Shown in pieces: positions 4,029 through 13,406 of a stretch of 64,000 nt of DNA. Within the stretch, counting starts at the first letter, position 1. Each line of letters begins with the position of its first letter. The notes beneath the pieces were generated by a model. The model worked only from the letters and a program-made list of their open reading frames with translations. It was not told the origin of the DNA and did no database searches. The translations under genes and the position numbers were made by a program. Origin of the DNA: Prosthecobacter debontii (GTDB lineage: Bacteria; Verrucomicrobiota; Verrucomicrobiia; Verrucomicrobiales; Verrucomicrobiaceae); contig CAMBPV010000001.1 of assembly GCA_945869695.1 (NCBI GenBank), forward strand, positions 62,001-126,000. The letters run 5' to 3'.

Positions 4029-4559
4029 ATGAGCGCTCCCGAACAAACTTTTGCCGCCTACGACTCGAAAATCGAGGGCAATGTCGTGATCACCAAACTG
4101 GACTCGGCCATCAACTGGATGCGGAAGAACTCCCTCTGGCCGATGCCCATGGGCCTGGCCTGCTGCGCGATCGAGCTGATGGCAACAGGTGCCAGCCGCT
4201 ATGACATCTCCCGTTTTGGTGCCGAGGTGTTCCGTTTCTCCCCCCGTCAGAGCGATGTGATGATCGTGGCGGGCACAGTGACCTACAAGATGGCCTTGGC
4301 CGTGAAGCGTATTTGGGATCAGATGCCCGAGCCGAAGTGGTGCATCGCCATGGGTGCCTGTGCTTCCAGTGGTGGCATGTATCGCAGCTACGCGGTCCTC
4401 CAAGGTATTGACCAGCTCATTCCTGTAGACGTTTACATCTCGGGTTGCCCACCCCGCCCAGAGGCCCTCCTCGAAGGACTCATGCGCCTTCAGCGGAAAA
4501 TCGAAGGCGAGCACTCGCTGTTGGACCAGAAGCGGCAGTTGGTCGAATCCCTCACTTAG
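4029..4559 (+). CDS. nuoB: NADH-quinone oxidoreductase subunit B
   Basis: Peripheral-arm subunit of respiratory Complex I, carrying iron-sulfur cluster N2, which passes electrons to quinone. It has 176 residues, normal for NuoB. All four cluster ligands are present: Cys45 and Cys46 in [18 protein letters not shown], Cys111 in MGACASSGG, and Cys140 in [12 protein letters not shown]; the spacing matches E. coli NuoB (63/64, 129, 158). nuoC follows 15 bases later on the same strand. Neither nuoA upstream nor nuoD downstream is present, so this is a split Complex I locus. Confidence 0.96.
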
Positions 4560-4574
4560 TTTTTCCCCAGTCCC

Positions 4575-5144
4575 ATGAAAGCGCCGCAGATCGTCGAAGC
4601 CCTGAAGCAAAAATTTGGCACGGCTGTGACCAGCACCCGAGAGCATCTCGCAGAGCACACATTGGTCGTCAAAATCGATACGGTGAAGCAACTCCTTAAA
4701 TACGCCCGCGACGAAATGGGATTCGATTATCTGATCGATGTCTCCAGCGTGGACAACTTCGAGACCGAGCCTCGATTTGAAGTGGTCTATGAGCTCTACG
4801 GCTACGGTCATAATCAGCACCTCCGAGTGAAAACGACGGCATCCGAAGACGAGTCCGTGCCCACCGTGTCTGATATTTGGCCGACGGCCAACTGGCATGA
4901 GCGTGAGGTCTACGACATGATGGGCATCACCTTTGACGGTCACCCCGATCTCCGTCGGATCCTGATGTGGGAGGGTTACCCGTTCTTCCCGCTCCGCAAA
5001 GATTTCCCTCTCGCCGGCAAGCCTAGCGACATGCCTGAAGTGGCATTCACGGGGATCGCTCCGCTCGAGGGTGGTCCCTTCGTGACCAGCCCCGGCACAT
5101 GCGGCACCGTGGATGCTGAGCCGCGTGCGAAGCGGTTCGATTGA
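4575..5144 (+). CDS. nuoC: NADH-quinone oxidoreductase subunit C
   Basis: 30-kDa subunit of Complex I that packs against NuoB and NuoD in the peripheral arm; 189 residues. Recognised from the family's conserved C-terminal region: [25 protein letters not shown], followed by a [19 protein letters not shown] block. The ATG at 4575 lies 15 bases after nuoB, so the two are probably co-transcribed. In many genomes nuoC is followed by or fused to nuoD; here the next gene is an unrelated secreted protein. The ~40 residues after the FPL(A/R)GKP block are more extended than in some NuoC proteins. Confidence 0.94.
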
Positions 5145-8057: not shown

Positions 8058-9269
8058 TCACGGTCTCGCGGCACGAAGGATGCCTGCCGCTTTGTGAAGC
8101 GTCTCCTCATACTCGCGTTCTGGGACGGAGTCCGCGACGATGCCGGAGCCGACCTGGAAGCTGATCTCACCGCCTTTTTTCACCGCCGTGCGGATGGCGA
8201 TGCTGAATTGACTCTGCCCATTAAATCCGAAGTAACCAATGGCTCCCGTGTAAATTCCGCGTGGCGTCTTCTCCAATTCCTGAATGATATCCAGCGCGCG
8301 TTTCTTCGGCGCACCACTGATCGAACCGCCGGGAAAACAAGCGGCCAATGCCGAGACGTGATCGATTCCCAGCTTCAGCGTTCCCTTCACTGTCGAAACC
8401 AAATGATGCACCTGCGCAAAACTTTCGACCGCCCATAACTCGGGAACAAAAACACTCCCAAAATCACAGACCTGACCCAAGTCGTTCCTCTCCAGATCGG
8501 TGATCATGAGAAGCTCGGCACGCTCTTTTTCAGAGCCGAGAAGCTCCACGGCAGATTGTGCATCCTGATCTGAATCCGCAGGAAATCGGGGCCTCGTTCC
8601 TTTGATCGGACGGGTGAGAATCTCCCGACCGTTCATTTTCAAAAAGCACTCGGGCGAAGCCGAAAAAAGCGTGACTCCATCCAGATCCAGGTAGGCGGAA
8701 AACGGCGCGGGCGAGACGGCGCGTAGTCTCTGGTAGAAACCAAGCGAGTCACCCGCTGCCGGCCAGTCGGCCGACCAAGGGTAGGATAAATTGACCTGAT
8801 AAATATCCCCGGCTGCGATGTAGTCGCGAGCACGATCAACCGCCACCAAGAAGTCCTGCCTGCTGAGCATCGACTGGAAGTCCAAAGCGGGAGAGAACCT
8901 TGCAGGCGGCGTGTTTTTCACGCCCCGAGCCCGCAGTCCGCTGGGATCATGCCAAGTCCCGGAATCATGCTCATACACCGCACAAGCCGGATAGAGACCA
9001 AGAGAGAATGCACCGTCGAAACCGATCCAACCAAAAAGGCCCCCATCCGGAATCGGCCCCCAGTCCGAATGCGGTTTTGCGTGCTCGGCGAGGCAAGACC
9101 GGATCCTCTCAGCGGCCTCGGAAAGATTACCCGTTAGGATTTCAGTGGGTGCCGCAGCGAGAATTGAGAGAGCGCCGACCCCTGATTCTGAGCTATCCAG
9201 CCAAATCAAGCCGCCCAAATGCTCCAATCGAGCCGCCTGATCAAAAGTTACTGAATTTGCATCAATCAC
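8058..9269 (-). CDS. pabB: Aminodeoxychorismate synthase component I (para-aminobenzoate synthase)
   Basis: Chorismate-binding enzyme that makes 4-amino-4-deoxychorismate for folate synthesis, with an amidotransferase (PabA/TrpG) not found in this window. Family motifs: DYIAAGDIYQVNLS, SASPECFLK, RPIKGTRPR (the Lys of PIKGT marks PabB rather than anthranilate synthase, which has Ala there), ERAELLMITDLERNDLGQV, HHLVSTVKG, FPGGSISGAPKKRA and GSGIVADSVPEREYEET. The frame is open to TTG 9341, but the -35 box of the divergent operon lies inside that extension, and the GTG at 9269 has a GGA-type ribosome-binding site, so I prefer the shorter form; the start remains uncertain. The N-terminal part is shorter than in E. 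coli PabB. Confidence 0.9.
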   Translation of the reverse strand: MIDANSVTFDQAARLEHLGGLIWLDSSESGVGALSILAAAPTEILTGNLSEAAERIRSCLAEHAKPHSDWGPIPDGGLFGWIGFDGAFSLGLYPACAVYEHDSGTWHDPSGLRARGVKNTPPARFSPALDFQSMLSRQDFLVAVDRARDYIAAGDIYQVNLSYPWSADWPAAGDSLGFYQRLRAVSPAPFSAYLDLDGVTLFSASPECFLKMNGREILTRPIKGTRPRFPADSDQDAQSAVELLGSEKERAELLMITDLERNDLGQVCDFGSVFVPELWAVESFAQVHHLVSTVKGTLKLGIDHVSALAACFPGGSISGAPKKRALDIIQELEKTPRGIYTGAIGYFGFNGQSQFSIAIRTAVKKGGEISFQVGSGIVADSVPEREYEETLHKAAGILRAARP

Positions 9270-9331
9270 CTCATTTCCAGACGTCTGTGGACAGGATCCA
9301 GACGCAGGAATGCAGCAAGTTTCGTGAACTA

Positions 9332-9360
9332 TTGACACCAAGGTGCCAAAACCGTACCAT
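9332..9360 (+). promoter_or_regulatory. Sigma-70-type promoter for the 9378-13406 operon
   Basis: A consensus -35 box TTGACA (9332-9337) is followed by a 17-base spacer and a -10-like TACCAT (9355-9360, four of six consensus bases). The predicted start site would be about 10 bases before the ATG at 9378, leaving a very short leader. It lies in the tight gap between the divergent pabB gene and this operon. Confidence 0.6.
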
Positions 9361-9377: not shown

Positions 9378-10520
9378 ATGCCGGCTGCAAATCCCATCCT
9401 CACACCCGACCGCGGAAAGGCACATTCCGTGGCGATGGCCGTGCTCTGCGGCTTGGCCGCTGTTCAGGTGTCCGCCATGGCCCGGGCCGTTTGGCTGGCC
9501 AAATACCGGGCCGCGCAGACCTCGGAAACGACGCCTGCGCAAGGACCTACCCCGGGTGCTCCCCTCGGGCCACCTCCCATCCCGATGGCGGTCACCGCCC
9601 TCATGCCCCCTCCATCCATTCCCGACGGCTCAGAAACGGCCCCAACCGTTCCTGCTCCCGCGGGAAATGCATTCCCTACCCCGCCGACAGGTCCCCCAGT
9701 CACTTCATCGGTCCCGAAGGCCAGTGCTGAGGTGATGGAATTGGTGGAGGTAGCGCAGCAATCCAGACCTCTAGGTGACCTTCAAGGTGCCCTCGAGGCC
9801 CTGCGCAGAGCCGACACACTTTCCCCCGATCACCCCCTGGTCCTTCTCGAAATGGCACAGACCTATGACCAAATGGGACTGACCGAAAAAGCCTTGGCCG
9901 CTTGGACAAAACTCCAAGCCATGGGACCCCAAGCCGGGGAAGGCTATTCCCGCGCAGCCCAACGCCTGGGCACTTCAGGTGCCTCCGCTATTGATGCCGG
10001 CGCGGCCACGCTTTCTCCAGCCACTGGGCTCACCACGCCTTCGGCCACCAAGCCCCTCGATGCTTCCAAAACACTGGGGCTCGGCCCCTGCGAAGTCATG
10101 CGTGACCCCGCCATTTCCAGAGGTGAGCGTCTCACCCTTCGCATTCCCATTCTCAGTCAACCCGGTCAAGCCATCGACCCCAGCGCAGTGGACATCAATG
10201 TGTTCTTCTTCGACATGGTCAATGGAGAGCGGGTGGAGCAGACCAAAGCGGATGTCCCCGTCAATTCATGGGTCCAAGCCCCCGTGGACTGGACCGAAGG
10301 CAGCGAGCTCCTCGACGTCGTTTACTTCATGCCTGAAACCTTGGACGCAGCTGCACTCCGCAGTCAGGGCGTCCGCAAATACCACGGCTACATCGTGAAA
10401 CTTTATTACCAAAACAAACTTCAAGACACCGTCATGGAGCCCGCCTCCTTGCAGAACTTTGGAAGCAGCAGTTCGTTCTCGGGCGCTGGGAATCCTCTGC
10501 TACCACCCGTGGGTCGATAA
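9378..10520 (+). CDS. Membrane-anchored TPR protein with proline-rich linker, function unknown
   Basis: 380 residues. A hydrophobic segment near residues 15-36 (VAMAVLCGLAAVQVSAMA) suggests an N-terminal anchor. It is followed by a Pro/Thr/Ala-rich low-complexity linker (about 45-112), one or two TPR-like helical pairs (about 115-205, with GDLQGALEALRRADTLSPDH and MGLTEKALAAWTKLQAMGP), and a C-terminal beta-rich domain (about 235-370, including SAVDINVFFFDMVNGERV and DVVYFMPETLD). I do not recognise the C-terminal domain by name. It is the first gene of a three-gene operon: its stop codon touches the ATG of the receiver/pseudokinase/FGE-like gene. A scaffold or sensing role with the downstream protein is inferred from that context only. 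Confidence 0.7.
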   Translation: MPAANPILTPDRGKAHSVAMAVLCGLAAVQVSAMARAVWLAKYRAAQTSETTPAQGPTPGAPLGPPPIPMAVTALMPPPSIPDGSETAPTVPAPAGNAFPTPPTGPPVTSSVPKASAEVMELVEVAQQSRPLGDLQGALEALRRADTLSPDHPLVLLEMAQTYDQMGLTEKALAAWTKLQAMGPQAGEGYSRAAQRLGTSGASAIDAGAATLSPATGLTTPSATKPLDASKTLGLGPCEVMRDPAISRGERLTLRIPILSQPGQAIDPSAVDINVFFFDMVNGERVEQTKADVPVNSWVQAPVDWTEGSELLDVVYFMPETLDAAALRSQGVRKYHGYIVKLYYQNKLQDTVMEPASLQNFGSSSSFSGAGNPLLPPVGR

Positions 10521-12464
10521 ATGAGCGCCATGGTTGTTCTACTTGTTGATTCAAACGCTCCCGCGCGGAGCGCACGTGCCGCGGCCATGGAGCAGCAGGG
10601 CTGGCGTGTCTTTCACGCAGACGGTGAAAAGTCCGCCTCTGCTTGGCTGAACCAAGCGGCGTCCCTCAATCTCCTGATCACTGAGGCCATCTTTGATGCC
10701 AGTTCCACGGGCTTTCAGCTCCGGGACTTCGTGCAAAAAAAATTCGCCGGCGCGAAGATCGTTTTCACCACCCGCTATGACCTCGCTGGATACGAAAGTC
10801 AGGTCAAGGACACGCCGGTGGTGATCGATAAACCCCTGTCCGCAGAGGAGTTGGTTTCGAAGGTCGCGGCATTTGTCACCACCGGCCCAGCCTCGCACCA
10901 GCCACCGCTTCTTCCGGCCGGCACCATGCTGGGAAACAATCAAATCATCGACCGGCTTTACACCGAGCGGGAAGCTGAAACCTACCGAGCCCTTCAACGC
11001 GCCGTGCAGAGACAGGTGGCCATGGTCGTGCTCAAGCCTGAACTCCTAGGAAAGCCTGAGGTGCTTCAAGAGTTTAAGGAACGTGAGCGGATCAAAGCAT
11101 CGGTCAATCACCCGCGGATCGCTCCCTTGTTTGAAGCAGGTGTTGAAAACGGCTGGCACTACTACACGCGAGAAATGCCGCCGGGGCGTTCACTTGAGCA
11201 AGTGCAGGCCGAAGGCACTCCACTGGGAGAGCGTGCGACGGTGGATGCCCTCTTCGGCGTAGCCGATGCGATGAATTATGCTATCGAACGCGGACTCCAC
11301 TACCGCAGCCTCGGCGCTCGGGATATTTACATCAGCACCGAAAATCAATCGAGCATCGTCAACATCGTGCGTCCTGCGATTGATACTCCCCGGGACCAAA
11401 AGTCCGATGTGAGTGCTCTTTTGTCCATGTTCCGACCTGTCGTTTCAGAAGGTAAAGCCAGAGGCCTTCTGCAATCTCTGACTGAAGATGCGCACGACTG
11501 GGCCGGATTGCTCACCGCACTGACCGAACTCCGAGAGGGCATGAGAGACCGCAGCGTCATTCGGAAAGCCGAGGCAGCGGAACTCATCGCGCCGACCCGT
11601 CCTGAAGGCTCGAAGTCCAATATCTTTCTCTGGGTTCTGGGAACTGTGTCCCTCTTCGCCGCAGCATGGCTGGGAGGATTTGCTGGCAAGGGTTATCAGC
11701 CACCACCCCGAGCGCATACCTCTGAAATGATTGAGATTCCTGCCGGAGAATTCACCTATCAACAACGTGAACGAAAAACTCTTCCTGCCTTCTTCATCAG
11801 CAAATATGAGGTCACGGTCGGGGAGTACGCTACGTTTTTGGAGGCGCTCAAAAAAGCCAAGCCCGGTCAATTTGACCACCCCGAACAACCGAACACCAAA
11901 AAAGACCACACCCCCGAGAGCTGGAAACAATTTTACGCGGCAGCAGCCACAGGTGCGTTGGTCAATGGTCAGGCTATCGATCTAGACTCACCCATCTCCC
12001 GCGTTGACTGGTGGGATGCCTATGCTTACGCGAAGTGGAAGGGCCAACGCCTACCCACCGAATTGGAGTGGGAAAAAGCGGCACGAGGACCGACCGGACT
12101 GGTTTTCCCCTGGGGCAATGACCCCAATCCCGCAGCAGCAAACCTCGGTGACGACTACGACCCCAAAGGCCTGACTGGAGGTGCGACAGATGGATTCAGT
12201 TTATGGGCACCTGTCAGAAAAATCGCCAAGGATGTGACTGCCACGGGTGTCGTGGGCCTGGCTGGCAATGTTGAAGAGTGGACATCCTCCTGGGCGACCC
12301 ACCCTGAACTCCCAGATGTCCGCGTGCCCGTCGTTCGGGGTGGACACTTCGGTCTAAAATCAAGCGCCCAACTGCTCACTCGCCGCTACTTTGCAGACTC
12401 TGCCTCTGAGGATGCTCTCGCGCGTGGATTCCGCACCGCTTCGGATCTTCCCCCAACGCCTTAA
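10521..12464 (+). CDS. Pseudo-receiver / pseudokinase / TM / FGE-like fusion protein
   Basis: 647 residues in four parts. (1) Residues 1-122, receiver-like: Asp10, Thr83/84 and Lys104 (VIDKP) are kept, but the phosphoacceptor position (LLITEAIFD) is Glu55. (2) Residues ~133-330, Ser/Thr kinase-like: the ATP-binding Lys is present (MVVLKPE, Lys172), but the catalytic loop reads HYRSLGARDIYI, so the HRD Asp is Ser263 and the loop Asn is Asp268; no DFG motif is visible. (3) A membrane helix at ~367-386. (4) Residues ~400-647, formylglycine-generating-enzyme (SUMF)-like: IEIPAGEF, ISKYEVTVGEYATFLEAL, LPTELEWEKAARG, GLAGNVEEWTSS, but with no Cys where the maturase has its catalytic pair. The sensor would be cytoplasmic and the FGE-like domain outside. 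Kinase-FGE fusions are known in the related Chlamydiae (Pkn1). Probably a regulatory scaffold, not an enzyme. Confidence 0.82.
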   Translation: MSAMVVLLVDSNAPARSARAAAMEQQGWRVFHADGEKSASAWLNQAASLNLLITEAIFDASSTGFQLRDFVQKKFAGAKIVFTTRYDLAGYESQVKDTPVVIDKPLSAEELVSKVAAFVTTGPASHQPPLLPAGTMLGNNQIIDRLYTEREAETYRALQRAVQRQVAMVVLKPELLGKPEVLQEFKERERIKASVNHPRIAPLFEAGVENGWHYYTREMPPGRSLEQVQAEGTPLGERATVDALFGVADAMNYAIERGLHYRSLGARDIYISTENQSSIVNIVRPAIDTPRDQKSDVSALLSMFRPVVSEGKARGLLQSLTEDAHDWAGLLTALTELREGMRDRSVIRKAEAAELIAPTRPEGSKSNIFLWVLGTVSLFAAAWLGGFAGKGYQPPPRAHTSEMIEIPAGEFTYQQRERKTLPAFFISKYEVTVGEYATFLEALKKAKPGQFDHPEQPNTKKDHTPESWKQFYAAAATGALVNGQAIDLDSPISRVDWWDAYAYAKWKGQRLPTELEWEKAARGPTGLVFPWGNDPNPAAANLGDDYDPKGLTGGATDGFSLWAPVRKIAKDVTATGVVGLAGNVEEWTSSWATHPELPDVRVPVVRGGHFGLKSSAQLLTRRYFADSASEDALARGFRTASDLPPTP

Positions 12465-12485: not shown

Positions 12486-13406
12486 ATGAAAAGCCCAATC
12501 TCATTCACTGCATCCGCGACGAGCCTATTCAAATGGGGGTATCCCGCTTGGTGCTTCCTTTTGGTCTTCATTGCCCTTACCCCCTTAGCCCAAGGGCAAT
12601 TCGCCACCAACCTATCTTTGCCGAAGACGAACTTCCTTTCTCACGAGCCCCTGATGGCGACGGTGACCCTCTCCAACCGATCAGGCGGCGATATTGTCAT
12701 GACTGGCTCGGCGTTGGCCAACTGGCTGACCTTTGAAGTCACGGACGTGAACGGACGCTCGCTTCCTTCGATTGGGCTGGCGCAGCAGAAACCCTTCATC
12801 TTCAAAGCGGGAACCACGATCGCGGAAAAAGTGAGAGTGTCTGATCACTACGGTGTCACCGAGCTGGGAGCTTATGGAATCACGGCCAACATTTACCACC
12901 CACCCACCAAACAGTTCTACACCTCGAATCGTTTGCGTTTTAATGTCATGGATGCCAAGCCCTTCTGGGAGCAACCCATCGGCATCCCCGCCGGTTTTCC
13001 GGATGCGGGACGCATCCGTCGCTATTCTCTCGTGCTCTTCCGGGACGTGGAACGCTCAAACATGTACTTCCGTTTCACGGATGACAAGTCCGCTCAAACC
13101 CTAGCCACTTATGAACTTGGCCCCTGCTCCGTCTCCGTGGATCCCACAGCGACTCTGGACAGTGACAATAAACTGCACACGCTCTTCATGGCCATGCCCA
13201 AGCTCTATTGCTATGTCATCATCGCACCCGACGGAAAACTGAAGAAGCGCGAATATTACAAGATGACCGAGACAAGCCGTCCTGCAATGGTGGCGAGTGG
13301 CGATGGCTCGGTCTCAATCCAAGGGGGGCTCTTTTTTGACCCCTCAGCACCGGAGCCCGCCAAAAAGAAAAGTCGGCCCGTCTCCGAGCGCCCTCCTGGC
13401 TTGTAA
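12486..13406 (+). CDS. Secreted protein of unknown function, third gene of the pseudokinase operon
   Basis: 306 residues. An N-terminal hydrophobic segment (about 17-37, YPAWCFLLVFIALTPLA, followed by QGQ) looks like a signal peptide. The mature part is beta-rich: an early Ig-like segment (FLSHEPLMATVTLSNRSGGDIVM...), then a second segment with SLVLFRDVERSNMYFRFTD and LHTLFMAMPKLYCYVIIAPDG, and a Lys/Pro-rich C-terminus. I do not recognise the family. It starts 21 bases after the fusion gene and is probably translated from the same message. Its secretion, with an extracytoplasmic FGE-like domain next door, suggests the two meet outside the cytoplasm. Its stop codon directly abuts that of the convergent MFS gene. 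Confidence 0.65.
   Translation: MKSPISFTASATSLFKWGYPAWCFLLVFIALTPLAQGQFATNLSLPKTNFLSHEPLMATVTLSNRSGGDIVMTGSALANWLTFEVTDVNGRSLPSIGLAQQKPFIFKAGTTIAEKVRVSDHYGVTELGAYGITANIYHPPTKQFYTSNRLRFNVMDAKPFWEQPIGIPAGFPDAGRIRRYSLVLFRDVERSNMYFRFTDDKSAQTLATYELGPCSVSVDPTATLDSDNKLHTLFMAMPKLYCYVIIAPDGKLKKREYYKMTETSRPAMVASGDGSVSIQGGLFFDPSAPEPAKKKSRPVSERPPGL

Follow-up and report, generated by a model that had tools for sequence, protein, structure and literature searches.

Locus and domain organisation of P0001

The stretch of DNA that was analysed (the window) is 64,000 nucleotides long and carries a row of three genes whose middle member, P0001, encodes a protein with a degenerate receiver, a degenerate kinase fold, a single predicted transmembrane (TM) helix and a domain resembling the formylglycine-generating enzyme (FGE). 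The features of the row are as follows:

9332..9360, plus strand: promoter-like site TTGACA-17-TACCAT ahead of the three genes; 1 found against 1.4 expected, hence no excess over chance
9378..10520, plus strand: TPR partner, 380 aa, with an N-terminal helix (residues 12-47), TPR (117-202) and a beta-rich domain (233-363); Pfam TPR_19, AF2 pLDDT 78.7
10521..12464, plus strand: P0001, a pseudo-receiver / pseudokinase / TM / FGE-like protein of 647 aa; ORF, translation, AF2 model with pLDDT 90.2
10521..10880, plus strand: pseudo-receiver of P0001, residues 1-120, with D10, Glu55 (codon 10683-10685, the phospho-Asp site), T83 and K104; Response_reg E 0.009, secondary structure, Pfam scores of relatives
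10920..11555, plus strand: pseudokinase of P0001, residues 134-345, with Val169, Arg188, Ser263, Asn281 and no activation segment; alignments, Foldseek matches to kinases and MviN
11622..11693, plus strand: single predicted TM helix of P0001, residues 368-391; AF2 helix, hydropathy
11721..12440, plus strand: FGE-like (PF03781) domain of P0001 without cysteines, residues 401-640; Pfam E 6e-38, conservation, no Cys pair
12486..13406, plus strand: predicted secreted partner, 306 aa, with a conserved C-terminal SERPPG; ORF, family counts

The ORF call confirms a frame of 647 residues at 10521-12464, and Pfam and AlphaFold show the four regions in the order that the first-pass annotation had given them. 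In the reverse complement of the gene the matching frame, the one frame that was translated, is interrupted by stops, and the minus-strand ORFs are short (114-161 aa).

The four regions differ in how readily sequence profiles recognise them. The FGE-sulfatase match (residues 401-640, E 6e-38) lies well above its cut-off, with 131 bits against 23.3 and coverage of profile positions 3-254 of 255, which places this part of P0001 in the PF03781 superfamily. The matches to Pkinase (residues 153-276, E 0.0019) and Response_reg (residues 6-115, E 0.009) are weak and fall under the Pfam cut-offs. In the AlphaFold model, which was built from 78 sequences and has a mean pLDDT of 90.2, residues 1-120 adopt a receiver-type alternating beta/alpha fold, residues 135-345 a kinase fold made up of an N-lobe and a shortened C-lobe, residues 368-391 a helix and residues 401-645 the FGE domain; with a pTM of 0.49, the relative placement of these domains is predicted without confidence. 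In a Foldseek search with the whole model, matches to protein kinases reached E about 1e-12, and those to three structures of the MviN pseudokinase (3otv, 3uqc and 3ouk) E about 1e-10, with a target TM of 0.62-0.65. Moreover, the homologues at loci L061 and L078, and the deeper ones at L193, L195, L199 and L200, exceed both the Response_reg and the Pkinase cut-offs. Given the model fold, the Foldseek matches and these higher-scoring relatives, the receiver and kinase assignment of P0001 is firm, and both folds suspected by the first-pass annotation are present in the predicted structure.

Mean identity within the P0001 family is 42% in the receiver, 54% in the pseudokinase, 60% in the FGE domain and 21% in the TM/linker region. 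A hydropathy peak of at least 1.6 at the TM helix is found in all 102 of 102 homologues; the charges flanking the helix are nearly equal by positive-inside count and do not settle its orientation.

A kinase fold without catalytic residues

The catalytic apparatus of the kinase fold is lost at every position that was compared. With the VAVK motif of PknB in register with V166-A167-M168-V169, the site of the VAIK lysine is occupied by Val169. Close homologues have Val at this position in 39 of 40 cases; of 62 that are more distant, 16 have Lys. Lys172, previously read as a retained ATP-site lysine, lies three positions further on, where K or R is common, and that reading had to be given up. In addition, the alphaC Glu is replaced by Arg188, the HRD Asp by Ser263 and the DFG Asp by Asn281, the latter present in 133/135 homologues; here the alignments bear out the earlier observation that the HRD Asp had become Ser263 and that no DFG was visible. 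The stretch between Asn281 and an alphaF-like helix is too short to hold an activation segment, which is therefore missing.

Catalytic loss runs through the family: neither an HRD nor a DFG motif occurs in any of the 135 homologues. Seven of them have Asp in the HRD column, in a motif VDYELHH or similar that is not HRD, and all seven have Asn at position 281. Among the deeper loci, a Gly-loop is recognisable in most of L193, L195, L199 and L200, and a VALK-type lysine occurs in L195, L198 and L199, among others; L195 and L199 have retained both features. P0001 thus lacks all three residues of an active Hanks-type Ser/Thr kinase (VAIK Lys, HRD Asp and DFG Asp), and, with its kinase fold (Foldseek E about 1e-12) and three lost motifs, it qualifies as a bacterial pseudokinase. 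The suggestion that every recognisable catalytic set was broken proved, if anything, understated, as the losses go beyond those first listed and HRD and DFG are intact in none of the 135 homologues. With the VAIK Lys, the alphaC Glu, the HRD Asp and the DFG Asp all lost, ATP binding by P0001 seems unlikely.

PADLOC matches to anti-phage defence kinases (PD-T4-6, MAD6) were discarded as they cover only residues 122-282, the kinase N-lobe and the start of the C-lobe. No defence genes lie beside P0001, whose neighbours are the pabB-like, TPR, secreted and MFS genes.

Distribution, gene neighbourhood and the amidase

The homologue search covered 57 genomes of relatives and 84,980 genome representatives. 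Full-length relatives of P0001 occur throughout the order. Of 188 genomes sampled from the class as a whole, 83 have an orthologue (match at E 1e-60), nearly always in single copy, and these span more than 20 family groups.

The gene row is conserved as well. In the window, the stop of the TPR gene abuts the ATG of P0001 (10520/10521) and the gene of the secreted protein begins 21 bases past the P0001 stop. A survey of 111 loci upheld the three-gene association that had been proposed from this one locus: a TPR-family gene is present in 102 of them, nearly always directly upstream of the P0001 homologue, and a gene of the secreted family in 61, nearly always directly downstream. The secreted family, which has no Pfam or NCBIfam match, occurs in 163/241 genomes of the phylum, almost always in single copy, and the TPR / secreted row extends to Akkermansia-type genomes of 2.7-3.1 Mb. 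For the TPR partner Foldseek returns only TPR repeats, and the best match, LpoP at E 5e-4, is not specific.

Further genes were noted around these rows. A divergent pabB-like (chorismate-binding) gene, recognised by eye at 8058-9341, adjoins the TPR gene, and many relatives (L126, L141, L142, L146-L148) carry a member of its family in that position. The secreted gene also occurs in families of the phylum that are further removed (L173, L174 and L177), where it stands beside a gene for a glycosyltransferase-9 (heptosyltransferase-type), confirmed by Pfam in L177 alone, and not beside the pseudokinase gene. Elsewhere in the window, two adjacent genes at 4029-5144 resemble, by eye, NADH-quinone oxidoreductase subunits B and C.

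An Amidase_3 (N-acetylmuramoyl-alanine amidase) gene comes directly after the secreted gene in 33 of the 75 loci that hold the latter, and is often followed by NnrE/D. Its identity is Pfam-confirmed at E 1e-48 to 1e-54. As a few of the loci are duplicates, the same genome having come from two collections, about 30 are independent in that sense, and loci within one clade are not independent of each other. Other families of the class show the adjacency too (L166, L172, L195 and L199). In genome G228 the row is split, with the TPR and pseudokinase genes in one place and the secreted gene, amidase and NnrE/D elsewhere in the genome (L181, L182). In P0001's own genome a convergent MFS gene follows the three-gene row, and the four Amidase_3 genes are all on other contigs.

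The amidase adjoins NnrE/D in many loci, and the linkage may therefore reflect in part an old chromosomal order and not function. It is possible, if rather unlikely, that P0001 is a signalling protein with no relation to peptidoglycan and that the proximity of the amidase is inherited gene order only. The amidase is indeed missing from the row in P0001's own family, and the gene sharing the row elsewhere, a YjeF-type NnrE/D, is a housekeeping gene. However, the adjacency of amidase and secreted gene recurs over several family groups and survives the splitting of the row (L182), which speaks against this reading.

The receiver and its glutamate

Glu55 occupies the site of the phospho-acceptor Asp, as the first-pass annotation had stated and the alignment confirmed, so that P0001 lacks the acceptor of a phosphorylatable PF00072 receiver. 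The model fold, the weak Pfam match, the strong matches of relatives and Glu55 together characterise the domain as a pseudo-receiver. D10 is present, as are T83 and K104, which the first-pass annotation had left unmentioned, and Ser11 stands where the second acidic residue would be. K104 itself is K in only 2/40 close homologues, P0001 and one other.

Glu55 is found in all 38 members of P0001's clade, a single clade with an SH-aLRT of 100 in a tree of residues 130-647. The count leaves out the Glu of L079, a long branch of doubtful alignment. Asp at the phosphosite occurs only in deeper relatives (L061, L078, L193, L195, L198-L200 and a few others), and of these L193, L195, L199 and L200 combine VDDE, ADDE or VDDD with TD at the phosphosite and a Lys-Pro. 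In L194 the phosphosite residue is Asn, and other branches of the family carry A, G or S there or have dropped the receiver. In L195 and L198, an additional DUF4388 domain lies between receiver and pseudokinase.

Glu55 thus appears to be derived inside a family whose deeper members keep Asp. On the simplest order of events, drawn from a tree without an outgroup, the catalytic centre of the kinase was probably lost early, in the common ancestor, at a time when the receiver was still canonical. Thereafter the receiver would have acquired Glu in P0001's family and A, G or S elsewhere, and would have disappeared in Akkermansiaceae-type lineages.

The fixation of Glu in the clade suggests that the side chain at position 55 matters. 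Glu is the most frequent replacement of Asp in pseudo-receivers and other Asp-less receivers (PMC12632262), and it can act as a phosphomimetic in many response regulators, an idea that has been disproved for some pseudo-receivers (PMC12632262). One may accordingly ask whether Glu55 keeps the receiver active, as first proposed, such that the clade would represent a permanently on form of an ancestral phospho-switch acting via the pseudokinase and the membrane on the FGE domain. The confinement of the 38 Glu sequences to one clade (SH-aLRT 100), the canonical DD/D/K receivers of deeper relatives, from which Glu was probably derived, and the retention of D10 and T83 are all in line with this proposal. 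We nonetheless find it improbable: the lysine that a phosphomimetic Glu should bind, K104, is kept in so few close homologues that its loss argues against classical switch geometry, the second acidic residue is gone, and lineages with A, G or S, or with no receiver at all, retain the remainder of the protein. As to novelty, which had been placed in the Glu-bearing receiver head, it lies in the combination of domains and their class-wide conservation; the Glu itself is the commonest replacement already known from pseudo-receivers (PMC12632262).

The FGE-like domain

The FGE-like domain is the best conserved part of P0001, with a mean identity of 60% inside the family and 42% outside. Its conserved motifs include VDWWDAYAY, DHPxQPxxKxxHxP and LPTE; K460 and D496-W-W-D-A-Y-A-Y are invariant and H453, Q456 and H463 near-invariant. 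The cysteine pair of a formylglycine-generating enzyme is absent, as P0001 is wholly free of Cys, in agreement with the first reading of its FGE-like region, and 88 of 102 homologues have no Cys within 600-625. The pair is likewise absent from the compared stretch of all the other PF03781 proteins that were aligned from the same genome, so that missing cysteines are usual for this fold and not special to P0001.

That the domain has some other enzymatic activity, as do EgtB, PvdO and SenA of the same superfamily, with the cytosolic part only regulating it, is highly doubtful: NCBIfam matches to EgtB (E 3e-18), SenA and PvdO do extend across the FGE part, and the invariant and near-invariant residues speak in its favour, but the scores are far under the curated cut-offs (66 bits vs 360 for EgtB), and VDWWDA and LPTE belong to the structure of the superfamily, with variants in the genome's other FGE-like proteins. 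The near-invariant polar residues could leave room for an unrecognised activity.

Comparison with known systems

Among transmembrane pseudokinases, MviN and EssB/YukC are known to serve as scaffolds (PMC12599244). MviN of M. tuberculosis (Rv3910, ActPs3) has, like P0001, lost VAIK, HRD and DFG and had its activation segment removed (PMC12599244). It also shares with P0001 a TM helix C-terminal to the kinase fold and a cell-wall setting, and is among the best structural matches. MviN differs in carrying a large membrane part for peptidoglycan synthesis, a lipid II flippase. Furthermore, it has no receiver, its extracytoplasmic part is not FGE-like, and it comes from a different phylum; the structural match is at about 15% sequence identity, with the P0001 family found in Verrucomicrobiota and ActPs3 being actinobacterial. 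EssB/YukC of type VII secretion, like P0001, spans the membrane and carries a kinase fold that is fully degraded, which in its case serves as a scaffold (PMC12599244), but it is part of a secretion system and has neither a receiver nor an FGE-like domain. No type VII secretion genes lie beside P0001.

From within the same superphylum, chlamydial Pkn1 resembles P0001 in its published domain order, a kinase-type domain followed by a PF03781 domain (PMC3581485, PMC1262709), and these papers concur with the earlier remark that kinase and FGE fusions have relatives in Chlamydia. Pkn1 differs in that IncG is reported to be both its interaction partner and its substrate (PMC3581485), and no receiver head has been described for it. 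The receiver fold with Asp replaced by Glu has counterparts in plant PRRs, fungal Rim15p and many bacterial Asp-less receivers (PMC12632262); P0001 differs from these in that its pseudo-receiver shares one chain with a pseudokinase and a membrane-crossing FGE-like domain. Kinase and FGE fusions (Pkn1), degraded transmembrane kinases and Glu pseudo-receivers are thus each already known separately. A review of bacterial pseudokinase families makes no mention of FGE, receivers or Verrucomicrobia, and in the open literature we found no description of a receiver-pseudokinase-FGE architecture in Verrucomicrobia.

Proposed role and significance

P0001 probably works as a cell-wall scaffold or signal coupler, not as an enzyme. 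We are evenly divided over the more specific proposal that it acts in the cell envelope as a non-catalytic transmembrane adaptor, most likely positioning or gating peptidoglycan remodelling. The folds, the catalytic losses, the conservation across the class and the gene row are what the analysis shows, whereas we infer the topology, the complex, the amidase link and the direction of signalling. According to this model, the cytosolic pseudo-receiver and pseudokinase would serve as protein-docking folds, one helix would span the inner membrane, and the FGE-fold (C-type-lectin-like) domain would bind a partner or ligand in the periplasm. P0001 would act together with the products of the two adjacent genes, the secreted protein and the TPR protein, which is membrane-anchored, and the most likely outcome would be that remodelling of peptidoglycan by Amidase_3 is positioned or gated, tying cytosolic input to the periplasmic wall, in the manner of the scaffolds MviN and EssB. 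The ancestral receiver was probably still phosphorylatable; in P0001's family Glu55 may have frozen this input, which several other lineages may have lost or let decay. The first-pass annotation had likewise pictured a non-catalytic FGE-fold binding domain coupled through the membrane, of which the non-enzymatic fold and the TM helix are supported, while binding and coupling are what we infer.

One may speculate further, with a claim that we consider unlikely to hold in full, that a two-component receiver acts here not on DNA binding but, via a dead kinase and across the membrane, on an FGE-fold domain, and in this way controls a peptidoglycan amidase. The receiver would be Glu-locked in the Verrucomicrobiaceae and would have been discarded in the Akkermansiaceae. 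If true, this would be a class-wide signalling device not previously described.

Bacterial pseudokinases with known roles come mostly from Actinobacteria, Firmicutes and pathogens. The pseudokinase family described here, kept in single copy across a class of Verrucomicrobiota, offers a natural series of receiver states (canonical, Glu-locked, decayed and absent), which allows testing what a receiver does when it is joined to a dead kinase. It also points to a possible regulator of the cell wall in a phylum, Akkermansia included, in which the biology of the envelope has been little studied.
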